Positions 34,905 to 42,317 of a DNA stretch of 64,000 nt are shown here, piece after piece. This stretch comes from Pedobacter cryoconitis. GTDB taxonomy: Bacteria > Bacteroidota > Bacteroidia > Sphingobacteriales > Sphingobacteriaceae. The notes below the pieces were generated by a model. It had not been told where the DNA came from and made no database searches. It was given only the letters and a program-made list of their open reading frames with translations. The number at the start of each line of letters is the position of its first letter. Position 1 is the first letter of the stretch. Location: assembly GCA_019352875.1 (NCBI GenBank), contig JAAAFW010000004.1, positions 1 to 64,000 on the forward strand, read 5' to 3'. Both the position numbers and the translations under genes were made by a program.

Positions 34905-35510
34905 ATGGAAAAAGATGAGCTTGTTATCAGAGAGATTTTGGCGGGAGCAAAGAAGTTATTTGGAAAACATGGGTTAAAAAAAACCACCATGGAGGAAATA
35001 GCGTCGGCTGCCGGTAAGGGGAAGAGTACGCTCTATTATTATTTTCCGAGTAAGGTGGAGATTTTCGAGGCTGTTGTGGAAGACGAGATGAAAAATGTAG
35101 TCAGACGCATTCGTGAAGCGGTGAATAACGCATTTACAGCTAAAGGTAAACTAAAAGCATTCTTGCATTCCCAAATTACTTCCATTATAGGCTTCCACAG
35201 TTTTAGGGAGGTTCTTTTTGAGGAAATGATGGACAGTATGAGGATGTTGATCTGCATAAAATCCAGATATGAACAAATACAGCTGGATATGATCAGGGAA
35301 ATTTTACTTGGTGGCTGCCAGTCGGGGGAATTCCGCGATATAACACCGGAAAGAATGCAAAAAATGTCATTTGTAATGGTTACAGCATTCCGGGGGTTAC
35401 ATTTTCCTTTGACGATTGAGCTATCTGAAAGTCAGACACAGGAATATTTTGAAGAGATGATCGATATGCTGATCGAAGGGATTGGCAGCGAGGAGTTGAG
35501 GAAAGTCTGA
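34905..35510 (+). CDS. TetR/AcrR-family regulator
   Basis: This 201-residue protein has the TetR helix-turn-helix in residues 10-55: AKKLFGKHGLKKTTMEEIAS then GKGKSTLYYYFPSKVEIFEA. The C-terminal ligand-binding domain has several helices and little motif content. Its neighbour is the spt gene 284 bp downstream, and a 22-bp palindrome between them is a plausible target. Control of sphingolipid synthesis by a lipid ligand is a reasonable but untested idea. Confidence 0.87.
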   Translation: MEKDELVIREILAGAKKLFGKHGLKKTTMEEIASAAGKGKSTLYYYFPSKVEIFEAVVEDEMKNVVRRIREAVNNAFTAKGKLKAFLHSQITSIIGFHSFREVLFEEMMDSMRMLICIKSRYEQIQLDMIREILLGGCQSGEFRDITPERMQKMSFVMVTAFRGLHFPLTIELSESQTQEYFEEMIDMLIEGIGSEELRKV

Positions 35511-35574
35511 TTTAGCTTTTGAGTCTGATTTAACTTTTCGGACTTGAAATAGTAAGCTGTAACAGAAATAACGA

Positions 35575-35667
35575 TACTTTTGTTGTTATGGATATAAGAG
35601 TAAATATTATTTGACAATAATATTATAGACTAAAATACGGTTATGGTCCAAGAATAATTTACTTTTG
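35575..35667 (+). promoter_or_regulatory. spt control region: two -7 boxes and a 9-4-9 palindrome
   Basis: Two identical TACTTTTG boxes (35575-35582 and 35660-35667) bracket a perfect palindrome, AATATTATT (35603-35611) and AATAATATT (35616-35624), with a 4-nt centre. The size and symmetry suit a TetR-type dimer, and a TetR gene lies just upstream. The remaining 35511-35794 sequence is AT-rich and has no gene. Confidence 0.55.
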
Positions 35668-35794
35668 TCTATCTTAAAGTTAACATATTTTTAATATATT
35701 AGATCATGTTTCATAACGGAATTTGTATTAACTAGCTGTATATGAATAAAATAAATTATGAATCTATCTGAAGTAAACACTATATAATTCAGGC

Positions 35795-37000
35795 ATGCGT
35801 AAAAAATTGGGCGATAGAATTGCTGCATTTCAAGATGCAATCGCAATCAAGGAAAAAGGATTATATCCTTATTTCAGATCAATCGAGTCTGCACAAGACA
35901 CCGAGGTGATCATTGAGGGTAAAAAAGTATTAATGTTTGGTTCTAATTCTTATCTGGGCCTCACTAATCACCCTAAAATTAAGGAAGCTTCCAAAATCGC
36001 CATTGATAAATATGGAACTGGCTGCGCAGGCTCCAGATTCCTTAACGGAACGTTGGATATCCATCTTGAACTGGAAAGAAGACTTGCTGCATTTGTTGGT
36101 AAAGAATCTGCTGTTTTGTTCAGTACGGGATTTCAGGTTAACCTGGGAGTGATATCTTGTCTGCTGGAAAGAAATGATTATTTAATATTGGATGAATACG
36201 ATCATGCTTCTATCATTGATGGTAGCAGACTTTCATTCTCACGTTCAATAAAATATGCGCATAATGACATGGATGATCTGCGTAAAAAGCTAAGCAGATT
36301 ACCAGAAGATTCGGCAAAGCTGATCGTAGCAGACGGAATTTTCAGTATGGAAGGGGATATCGTGAAGCTTCCTGAGATCGTACAGATCGCTGAAGAATTT
36401 GGTGCTAATATTATGATGGACGATGCACACAGTATTGGTGTTATCGGTTTTAATGGTTCAGGGGTATCTTCGCATTTCGGACTGACTGACAAGGTTGACC
36501 TGATTATGGGTACTTTTAGTAAGTCGCTTGCGTCATTAGGTGGATTTATTGCCGCTAATGAAGAAACTATTGAGTACATCAAGCACCGTGCAAGATCATT
36601 GATGTTTAGTGCTAGTATGCCGCCGGCTTCCGTAGCCAGCGTAATTGCAGCTCTGGATATTATTGAATCGGAGCCAGAACGTATTGATAAATTATGGGCA
36701 AACACAAATTATGCAAAAAAACTTCTACTAGACGCTGGTTTCGATATAGGACATCCTGAGAGTCCAATTATCCCGGTTTATATCCGTGATAATGACAAAA
36801 CTTTTCAGGTTACCAATATCCTTCAGAAAAATGGAATTTTTGTAAACCCTGTGGTATCGCCAGCAGTTCCATCTGATTCTTCTATGATCAGGTTCTCCCT
36901 GATGGCAACTCATAGTTTCGAACAGATTGAAGAAGCAGTCGATAAACTATGTGCAGCATTTAAAGAGGTACAACTAACTCCTGCTAAAGTGAGTATTTAA
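35795..37000 (+). CDS. spt: Serine palmitoyltransferase
   Basis: SPT condenses serine with palmitoyl-CoA to 3-ketosphinganine, the first committed step of sphingolipid synthesis. The 401-residue protein is a soluble alpha-oxoamine synthase with the PLP lysine K243 in [12 protein letters not shown]. It has the SPT-type blocks [42 protein letters not shown] and [10 protein letters not shown]. It resembles the well-studied Sphingobacterium enzymes more than KBL or BioF. The epimerase-type reductase 70 nt downstream and the fatty-acid hydroxylase at 41697 support a sphingolipid role. Confidence 0.93.
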
Positions 37001-40991: not shown

Positions 40992-41009
40992 TCGTTTATA
41001 ATTACAGTC

Positions 41010-41585
41010 ATGATGCCTTTAGCATTAAAAAATAATTTTTTCCAAATCATCATTGCGATTTTCGTAGTTGCAGGTAGCTTCAGTGTTTCGGCGCAGGATA
41101 CTGGTAACCCTTCTCCTCTGAATTTCCCTGTTCCAAAGGGAATTGAGAATCAATTGTTCTACCTGCAGCGTGATCCTAATATCAATACAATCATCTGTGA
41201 GCTCAATGTTGGTTCTGATGGAGATGTTGTTAAGGATAAGCCGGTATCTGTTTACTGGATCAGGTATGACGAAAAAAAGGAAAAGAAAGATCTTAACATG
41301 ATTCAGCGAAAGTTTGCCTACGGAATAGATACCAAAGAAATAGGTAAGGATAAATATGAGTTACGATTTGTTTCACATAAAAAACTTCCTATGTATCTCC
41401 AGCGGTCCACAACTGATCAAAAATTTCATGTTTATGTGACAGTAAATCAGAAGAAGATTCAAATAGAACGCATATTTTTGCGTATCGAAGGTGGTTCGTT
41501 CTGGCTTCCCAATGTAAAGTATGTGGAAATCAAAGGGCTGGATACTTCAGATAATTTACCAACAGTACAAAGAATCAAAATATAA
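41010..41585 (+). CDS. Secreted DUF4833 protein
   Basis: The 191-residue protein has a signal peptide (cleavage near VSAQD) and a single DUF4833 domain: LNFPVPKGIENQLFYLQRD, then PVSVYWIRYDEKKE and later RIFLRIEGGSFWLP. It follows the DUF5686 gene after 18 nt, so the two are surely co-transcribed and may act together in the envelope. No enzyme motif is visible. ATGs at 41010 and 41013 are both possible. Confidence 0.82.
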   Translation: MMPLALKNNFFQIIIAIFVVAGSFSVSAQDTGNPSPLNFPVPKGIENQLFYLQRDPNINTIICELNVGSDGDVVKDKPVSVYWIRYDEKKEKKDLNMIQRKFAYGIDTKEIGKDKYELRFVSHKKLPMYLQRSTTDQKFHVYVTVNQKKIQIERIFLRIEGGSFWLPNVKYVEIKGLDTSDNLPTVQRIKI

Positions 41586-41696
41586 TAAGCAGAATGTAAA
41601 CGCTGGTCTGTCATATTATGCCAGCAATATAATCCGGAACATTAAACAGCAGTTTTTGTTGCGATGTTCATATTAAACGCTTAAAATTCAATCACT

Positions 41697-42317
41697 ATGA
41701 AAAAGAATTTTATCTCTAACTCTTCCGAATCCATCAGGATGTTTAAAAGTAGCTTTTTAGAAAGCTTATCTAAAGTACATTATTATGTGCCGCTTATTGT
41801 TTATATACCTGTAATCGGCTATCTGATCTATTTATCTTTTACAGATGCAAAGATGGATTTTCTATCTTTTGGATCGTGGTTCCTGATCGGTTTGTTTGTC
41901 TGGACGATTTCAGAATATATATTACACCGTTTCGTTTTCCATTTTTATCCTAAGTCGGCTATAGGAAAACGGATACATTTTATATTCCATGGCGTTCATC
42001 ATGACTATCCGAATGACTCAAAACGGTTAGTTATGCCACCTTCGGCAAGTATACCAATGGCATTGGGCTTATATTTTCTATTTCTTTACATTCTTCCAGC
42101 CGGAACTATTTATGCTTTCTTTACCGGATTTTTAATAGGGTATCTGATTTATGACATGGTACATTACGCTCTGCACCACGCTAATTTTAAAAGTGGCTTC
42201 TGGAAAAAATTAAAGCAACATCATATGTTGCACCATTATTCAGATTCGACCAAAGGATATGGAGTAAGTTCCGCTATCTGGGATAAAGTCCTTGGGTCAG
42301 ATTTTGACAAAAAATAA
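41697..42317 (+). CDS. Fatty-acid/sphingolipid hydroxylase (sterol desaturase superfamily)
   Basis: The 206-residue membrane protein has the His-box pattern of di-iron hydroxylases: HRFVFH, HGVHH, HYALHH and HHMLHH, alternating with four hydrophobic segments. It resembles the catalytic part of fatty-acid 2-hydroxylases (Scs7/FA2H) without the cytochrome b5 domain. In this locus it likely adds the hydroxyl to the N-acyl chain of ceramide, as seen in Sphingobacteriaceae sphingolipids. The exact position is inference. It is followed by a terminator. Confidence 0.85.
   Translation: MKKNFISNSSESIRMFKSSFLESLSKVHYYVPLIVYIPVIGYLIYLSFTDAKMDFLSFGSWFLIGLFVWTISEYILHRFVFHFYPKSAIGKRIHFIFHGVHHDYPNDSKRLVMPPSASIPMALGLYFLFLYILPAGTIYAFFTGFLIGYLIYDMVHYALHHANFKSGFWKKLKQHHMLHHYSDSTKGYGVSSAIWDKVLGSDFDKK

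Follow-up and report, generated by a model that had tools for sequence, protein, structure and literature searches.

The window analysed here is a 64,000 nt stretch of Pedobacter cryoconitis (assembly GCA_019352875.1, contig JAAAFW010000004.1, positions 1 to 64,000), and the subject of this study is a sphingolipid locus on its forward strand (34905-42317) in which two envelope proteins, DUF5686 and DUF4833, stand among sphingolipid enzymes. The locus opens with a TetR-type regulator (34905-35510, +; PF00440, 63 bits), followed by serine palmitoyltransferase (SPT; 35795-37000, +), a member of the NF047600 family by its 740.6 bits against a curated cut-off of 640, and by an extended-SDR reductase of the NAD-epimerase type (37071-38060, +; PF01370). 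Beyond a gap (38061-38414) come the DUF5686 protein (38415-40991, +; PF18939, 180.9 bits), which consists of a CarboxypepD_reg-like N-terminus, a middle region and a C-terminal barrel at about residues 468-855, the DUF4833 protein (41010-41585, +; PF16117, 164.1 bits), which has an N-terminal signal-like segment, and a membrane enzyme of the FA_hydroxylase family (41697-42317, +; PF04116, 71.5 bits against a cut-off of 31). Intergenic distances are 70 bp between SPT and reductase, 354 bp between reductase and DUF5686, 18 bp between DUF5686 and DUF4833, and 111 bp between DUF4833 and hydroxylase. Pfam and NCBIfam matches affirmed the genes, positions and strand assigned in an earlier sequence-only reading of this stretch, and added the TetR gene, which was absent from its title.

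Among named genomes, the closest is that of Pedobacter antarcticus (DUF4833 90% and DUF5686 99% identical). As the gene order of the locus recurs in this species (L034) and, with added genes, in many other Pedobacter, it is not due to chance. A close homologue of the TetR gene adjoins SPT in 13 of the 80 DUF4833 loci described below. By its position, corresponding to the third gene of an SPT-GNAT-reductase core in relatives, the reductase is a candidate keto-sphinganine or oxidised-ceramide reductase; the hydroxylase is likely to act on ceramide. BT_0972 is described in the accessible part of PMC9278070 as a short-chain dehydrogenase of ~31 kDa.

To place the DUF4833 protein among its relatives, one genome per species was scanned with a DUF4833 pattern (84,980 species), and the best 80 of the 395 resulting stretches were kept. 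Pedobacter dominates this sample with 75 loci, of which two are named no further than Sphingobacteriales or Sphingobacteriaceae; 5 Flavobacterium loci make up the rest. In 44 of the 80 loci, DUF4833 forms the C-terminal part of a CDP-alcohol phosphotransferase reading frame of 424-456 aa carrying the enzyme motif, which was scored in a loosened, self-written form; Pfam confirmed both domains in all four fusions scanned (L056, L036, L083, L091). The fused gene directly follows DUF5686, at a distance of at most 135 bp, in 44/44 loci, SPT is nearby in 43 of them (the remaining locus, L067, lies on a 5-kb contig), and a homologue of the FA_hydroxylase gene follows within 1.5 kb in 42/44. In locus L056 the order is SPT - GNAT - reductase - MIPS (myo-inositol-1-phosphate synthase) - PgpA - GtrA - DUF5686 - CDP-OH::DUF4833 - hydroxylase - PAP2_3. 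MIPS, PgpA and GtrA thus occupy the place of the gap between reductase and DUF5686 in the window, as PgpA and GtrA do in L036. The enzyme part is related to phosphatidylinositol-phosphate (PIP) synthase: both fusions scanned against NCBIfam (2/44; L056 and L036) scored 398 and 406 bits, above the cut-off of 350 for the BT_1523 phosphatidylinositol-phosphate synthase, as did the unfused enzymes adjoining DUF4833 in L131 and L172 (406 and 359 bits). A hydrophobic segment precedes DUF4833 in 44/44 fusions, and 38/44 carry a signal-peptidase-like site as judged by a self-written pattern. In one further fusion (L118:8506-9990), DUF4833 is attached C-terminally to a fatty-acid hydroxylase, and the best SPT-model match of that genome reaches 344 bits. 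In L027 a fatty-acid hydroxylase directly follows DUF4833.

The remaining 36 loci carry short DUF4833 forms like that of the window, with SPT near in two, those of P. antarcticus (L034) and of P. cryoconitis (L037). For 6/36 short forms and for 15/33 further loci, a CDP-alcohol phosphotransferase is found on the same strand at a distance of up to 3 kb; these further loci were partly chosen for presence or absence of SPT or MIPS linkage, so that their ratio gives no frequency estimate. Comparison of the loci distinguished three head-group modules. Module A is the MIPS, PgpA, GtrA, type-A CDP-alcohol phosphotransferase (PIP-synthase type) and PAP2_3 set. Module B comprises an NTP transferase, a 291-aa protein, a CDP-OH enzyme, an LPG-type protein and a HAD protein; the 291-aa protein has no Pfam match, and an ATP-grasp label given by eye to one module B gene obtains no support from Pfam. 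Module C consists of CDP-OH and GtrA, often after a PhyH gene. Besides the type-A fusions, DUF4833 lies within 3 kb of CDP-alcohol phosphotransferases of types B and C: it follows module B in L018/L019 and L133, precedes it in L037, where the hydroxylase separates the two, and follows module C in Flavobacterium, L026, L119 and L134. The PhyH - CDP-alcohol phosphotransferase - GtrA - DUF4833 set is conserved in Flavobacterium and some Pedobacter relatives (L106, L110, L021, L023, L026, L119).

Modules A and B are similar to the two clusters for inositol lipids given in the accessible part of PMC9246714. There, the Bacteroides thetaiotaomicron cluster BT_1526-BT_1522 comprises MIPS, a PgpA-type phosphatase, GtrA, CDP-alcohol phosphotransferase and a PAP2-type gene, the alternative cluster consists of NTP transferase, CDP-alcohol phosphotransferase and HAD, and a carboxypeptidase-regulatory-like neighbour, BT_1527, is mentioned as unstudied. 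BT_1527, which among the papers searched is named a single time, in one of them, may be a candidate DUF5686 protein. The operons of the relatives share their gene kinds with the BT_1526-BT_1522 cluster, and 4/4 type-A enzymes scanned exceed the BT_1523 cut-off, whereas the window locus has none of the five genes and the Sphingobacteriaceae add SPT, DUF5686, DUF4833 and hydroxylase.

MIPS, a PgpA-type phosphatase, CDP-alcohol phosphotransferase and a PAP2/AUR1-type gene are all missing from the operon of the window and present in L056 and L022, so it does not qualify as a cluster of the B. thetaiotaomicron type. No recognisable gene remnants were detected in the window gaps (best E 0.73 for GtrA, 1.2 for PgpA and 4.7 for type-A CDP-OH); a type-C CDP-OH match in a gap (E 0.079 over 20 residues) was taken for chance. 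The GNAT-family gene that lies between SPT and reductase in relatives is also missing from the locus, and a match with 69% identity lies ~41 kb past the locus end on the same contig. In quick trees with SH-aLRT supports, DUF5686 of the window is placed (support 99) in a group of seven rows that also includes P. antarcticus, L037 and four fused-DUF4833 loci; its DUF4833 groups, together with that of P. antarcticus, with eight fused rows (support 87, not starred), and that of L037 with five fused rows (support 95). This placement among fused rows makes it likely that the DUF4833 of the window has lost the enzyme part, more clearly so for L037 than for the window. The genome of L037 also contains, besides its intact SPT, a second, incomplete SPT-like frame with one internal stop (G295, contig C39, ~43 kb; 566.6 bits).

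A head-group module is present elsewhere in the genome of the window. Contig C22 (~707-712 kb; L116) carries a module B with 61-80% identity to the L037 set by BLAST; its Pfam matches (NTP_transferase, CDP-OH_P_transf and HAD) are those of the alternative inositol lipid cluster, to which it can be assigned on gene content. This set is unlinked to SPT in the genome of the window, in difference to L018/L019, L037 and L133, where it is linked to SPT and DUF4833. The module B enzyme is one of two CDP-alcohol phosphotransferases above the Pfam cut-off in this genome; the other is identified by TIGR00473 (113.7 bits, cut-off 107) as a phosphatidylserine synthase. The window itself contains a MIPS-like gene outside the locus (19902-21095, +; PF01658, 82.5 bits against a cut-off of 27; TIGR03450, 307 bits, below the cut-off of 638), which could be the source of an inositol branch.

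The core of the pathway can be compared with spt-bcerS-cerR of Caulobacter, for which the accessible text of PMC11087976 places SPT and bCerS in the cytoplasm and CerR in the periplasm. The SPT-GNAT-reductase core of the relatives is comparable, and the genome of the window has matches to all three genes; GNAT and reductase are presumably the counterparts of bCerS and CerR. The window differs in that GNAT lies away from the locus, and head-group and envelope genes are added.

Of 101 genomes of the family, 43 have DUF4833 and 38 have SPT; the two occur together in 32, whereas 11 contain only DUF4833 and 6 only SPT. DUF4833 is thus present in 32/38 SPT genomes compared to 11/63 others (Fisher 4e-11, a value that is too small as the genomes are related), and for 22 of 52 DUF4833 genes the distance to SPT is at most 15 kb. 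Behind the 80-locus sample, SPT was found in 33/39 searched genomes, the others being that of L067 and five Flavobacterium, in which DUF4833 occurs without SPT in 5/5 searched genomes. SPT was found in 30/30 searched Pedobacter genomes with short DUF4833 (the L055 genome was left out). In 19 SPT loci examined from these 30 genomes, a BLAST search for DUF5686, DUF4833, the three CDP-OH types and the hydroxylase, covering ~7-15 kb downstream of the reductase, found none of these genes beside SPT-GNAT-reductase in any case. Among the 11 genomes outside this check, at least two (L034, L037) have the pair at SPT, and four (L103, L104, L107, L108), to judge from species names, carry another DUF4833 copy that is fused and located at SPT (L081, L102, L100, L101).

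DUF5686 lies at most 34 bp from DUF4833 in L034, L037 and L095, which, together with the spacing in the fused loci, bears out the tight coupling assumed in the sequence-only reading, and in five loci (L095, L051, L053, L060, L061) the two are at most 1.1 kb apart with no SPT near. These five belong to a Pedobacter group, also including L040 and L047, in which DUF5686 and DUF4833 occur together away from SPT, in some of them separated by a TetR gene or by transporter genes. MIPS is present in 14 of 198 genomes of the wider class, and 12 loci were newly examined. Six of these contain DUF5686, five of them the divergent type of the window (Pfam 165-191 bits, window 181) and one, L178, the ordinary type (786 bits); five of 12 compares with ~0.2 expected, assuming 3 copies in 3.5 Mb. 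DUF4833 is found in four of the 12 loci, each time separated by 0-6 bp from a CDP-alcohol phosphotransferase. In G450 and G503 the order is MIPS-PgpA-GtrA-DUF5686-CDP-OH-DUF4833-PAP2_3, and neither genome has a match in the SPT range (best 371 and 358 bits), and G482 has DUF4833 and no SPT (best match 339 bits), these three NF047600 scores being taken as other acyltransferases; G481 and G454 are above the SPT cut-off, and the kind of a 490-bit SPT-model match in G421 is unsure.

The DUF5686-DUF4833 pair is tied more closely to head-group synthesis than to SPT, as G450 and G503 have the full cluster and no recognisable SPT, and the pair is missing from the 19 SPT loci examined. Judged from gene neighbourhoods, head-group lipid synthesis is where the pair has its place, and its connection with SPT is a feature of this family. 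The sequence-only reading had tied the pair to the sphingolipid enzymes, had suggested a neighbourhood survey of pair and spt, and would have been contradicted by a pair that is usually unlinked to spt and common in species lacking sphingolipids. Its association with sphingolipid genes holds for the co-occurrence with SPT and for the fused loci, but the steadiest partner of the pair is the CDP-alcohol phosphotransferase or inositol-lipid module, and the 19 SPT loci, G450, G503 and the Flavobacterium genomes contradict it in part.

Structural models were used to characterize both proteins. The C-terminal part of DUF5686 (residues 468-855) matches Omp85 barrels over ~270-310 residues with VIA Z 16.7-19.0 among the matches listed, the top match being Sam50 (9nk7_B; Z 19.0, rmsd 4.2, 301 aligned). 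Foldseek returned 122 matches at E<=1e-3 for the DUF5686 model, including BamA, Sam50 and TamA. In difference to these members of the Omp85 superfamily, DUF5686 has a CarboxypepD_reg-like N-terminus; Pfam gave no match to POTRA at E<=0.001, and a weak profile comparison gave no support for a relation by sequence. PDB sequence relatives at E<=1 number four and are confined to the N-terminal residues 12-148; residues 14-132 give a weak NCBIfam BamP match. On the basis of this low-confidence model, we suggest that DUF5686 may work like an Omp85 protein, rather than be one. DUF4833 is modelled as an all-beta domain after the signal-like segment (pLDDT 81) and has no PDB sequence relatives at E<=1. 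Movement of lipids by the pair, as proposed in the sequence-only reading, would fit the modelled Omp85-like barrel of DUF5686; for its other proposal, that the pair senses sphingolipids, no support was found.

An Omp85-like barrel next to a secreted-type domain that is fused to a head-group enzyme suggests a delivery path. We therefore tentatively favor, at somewhat less than even chances, that the locus is a trimmed form of an operon of the Bacteroidia for making and delivering sphingolipids that bear a head group, mostly inositol phosphate; the association of these genes is what the loci display, and delivery is what we infer from it. SPT, the GNAT-family protein encoded elsewhere on the contig and the reductase would make ceramide, which the hydroxylase would modify. 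The CDP-alcohol phosphotransferase module would make the head-group lipid at the inner membrane, a task that in this strain may fall to the unlinked alternative inositol lipid module on C22, in which case its head group would presumably be of this type. DUF4833, secreted or tethered in the periplasm, would receive and bind the completed lipid at the periplasmic side and hand it to DUF5686, whose Omp85-like barrel would insert it into the outer membrane. The Pfam and NCBIfam checks firm up the inositol link; they bear on no transport step, so our estimate of the whole is unchanged.

Several observations weigh against this interpretation. Concerning the proteins, the whole DUF5686 model reaches a pLDDT of 56 only, and hhalign comparison with BamA and TamA profiles gave probabilities of 0.2 and 0.1, in a weak test in which BamA and TamA themselves reached only 47. 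The DUF4833 fold has no PDB match at E<=0.001, and its best VIA Z of 4.1 over 42 residues excludes no fold. Only 18/44 fusions show net positive charge ahead of the hydrophobic segment, a feature that would speak for a C-terminus in the periplasm. Concerning the pathway, the PAP2_3 protein of L056 is below the NCBI cut-off for phosphoinositol dihydroceramide synthase (313 compared to 480 bits), and 30/36 short DUF4833 forms lack a CDP-alcohol phosphotransferase on their own strand at distances up to 8 kb. The modules also occur without the pair: L171 and L170 contain the module A set, and L173 module B, with neither DUF5686 nor DUF4833 within 20 kb, and in G099 the operon includes DUF5686 and lacks DUF4833. 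In the phylum-wide MIPS sample, 33/35 places outside the genome of the window had neither DUF5686 nor DUF4833, as searched with a profile mainly from Pedobacter; 31 of these lie outside the class, and L146, with full module A, lies inside it. The remaining two places, L022 and L032, have DUF5686. In view of these 33 loci, MIPS was rejected as a phylum-wide anchor for the pair, and only the class sample is informative.

A rival close behind, although somewhat unlikely, sees in DUF4833 an accessory or regulatory domain that serves lipid enzymes of the inner membrane from the periplasmic side, controlling or stabilising these enzymes or sensing their product, and that moves no lipid; DUF5686 would have a separate role. 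This would account for the fusion of DUF4833 to two different lipid enzymes, the CDP-alcohol phosphotransferase and the fatty-acid hydroxylase, and for its occurrence beside CDP-alcohol phosphotransferase and GtrA with no DUF5686 near in Flavobacterium and G138. However, the signal-peptidase-like site in most fusions looks as if DUF4833 were released, the DUF4833 of the window has no enzyme part and yet persists beside DUF5686 and hydroxylase, and the majority of short forms stand away from any CDP-alcohol phosphotransferase, as noted above. More doubtful still is a role of DUF5686 as a BAM/TAM-like helper in outer-membrane assembly of surface proteins that is merely co-regulated with lipid genes. 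Its Omp85-like barrel, the BamP match (21 bits against a cut-off of 230) and further DUF5686 copies outside the locus would agree with such a helper; four DUF5686 matches in the genome (one partial, 32 bits), two of them inside the window, mean that DUF5686 alone is not specific to the locus. For a general helper it would be unexpected, though, that one divergent type recurs beside inositol-lipid genes in several families. An operon of convenience, that is co-regulated envelope genes sharing no pathway step, is improbable, since the gene fusions and the closeness of DUF5686 and DUF4833 away from SPT point to shared function, even if the order is broken in many relatives and the pair is absent from the 19 SPT loci.

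In its boldest form, delivery of head-group lipids by the pair would mean that Bacteroidia possess an export route dedicated to inositol-type sphingolipids and phospholipids, formed by DUF4833 together with the DUF5686 subfamily that has the Omp85-like barrel. DUF4833 would act as a carrier in the periplasm, either set free from the head-group enzyme or docked on it, and DUF5686 as the outer-membrane insertase. We consider this form unlikely as it stands; if true, a barrel of the Omp85 type would here be devoted to one particular class of lipids. According to the accessible part of PMC11087976, bacterial sphingolipid flippases and lipid transporters have not yet been identified. The pair provides two concrete candidates for bacterial sphingolipid transport to the outer membrane, together with a genetic context (PIP-synthase-type fusion and inositol-lipid clusters) and a fold hypothesis. 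Clusters related to these influence the lipid make-up of gut Bacteroides, so that what holds here could also apply to commensals. The literature, sought by the names DUF4833 and DUF5686 only, yielded no mention of either, and the accessible text of the TamL paper PMC12045153 mentions neither 'DUF' nor 'sphingolipid'; that of PMC8791184 says nothing on neighbouring genes.

Further observations concern the surroundings of these genes. A free-standing DUF4833 gene in L039 (~10-15.7 kb) adjoins 6-phosphogluconolactonase-type, G6PD and 6PGD genes by Pfam, and in L057, L109 and L128 (~9.5-11.6 kb) DUF4833 is, by eye, next to pentose-phosphate genes. Upstream of the locus in the window (32880-34770) lie a sigma-70 family factor of the ECF type and then a 430-aa protein, which has no Pfam match and resembles, by eye, an anti-sigma factor plus an outer-membrane barrel. 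The second DUF5686 gene of the window (60847-63423), 57% identical to the first, adjoins a convergent gene (63424-64000) matching Omp85 (40 bits), and the genes upstream of it resemble, by eye, an efflux operon with an AraC-type regulator.

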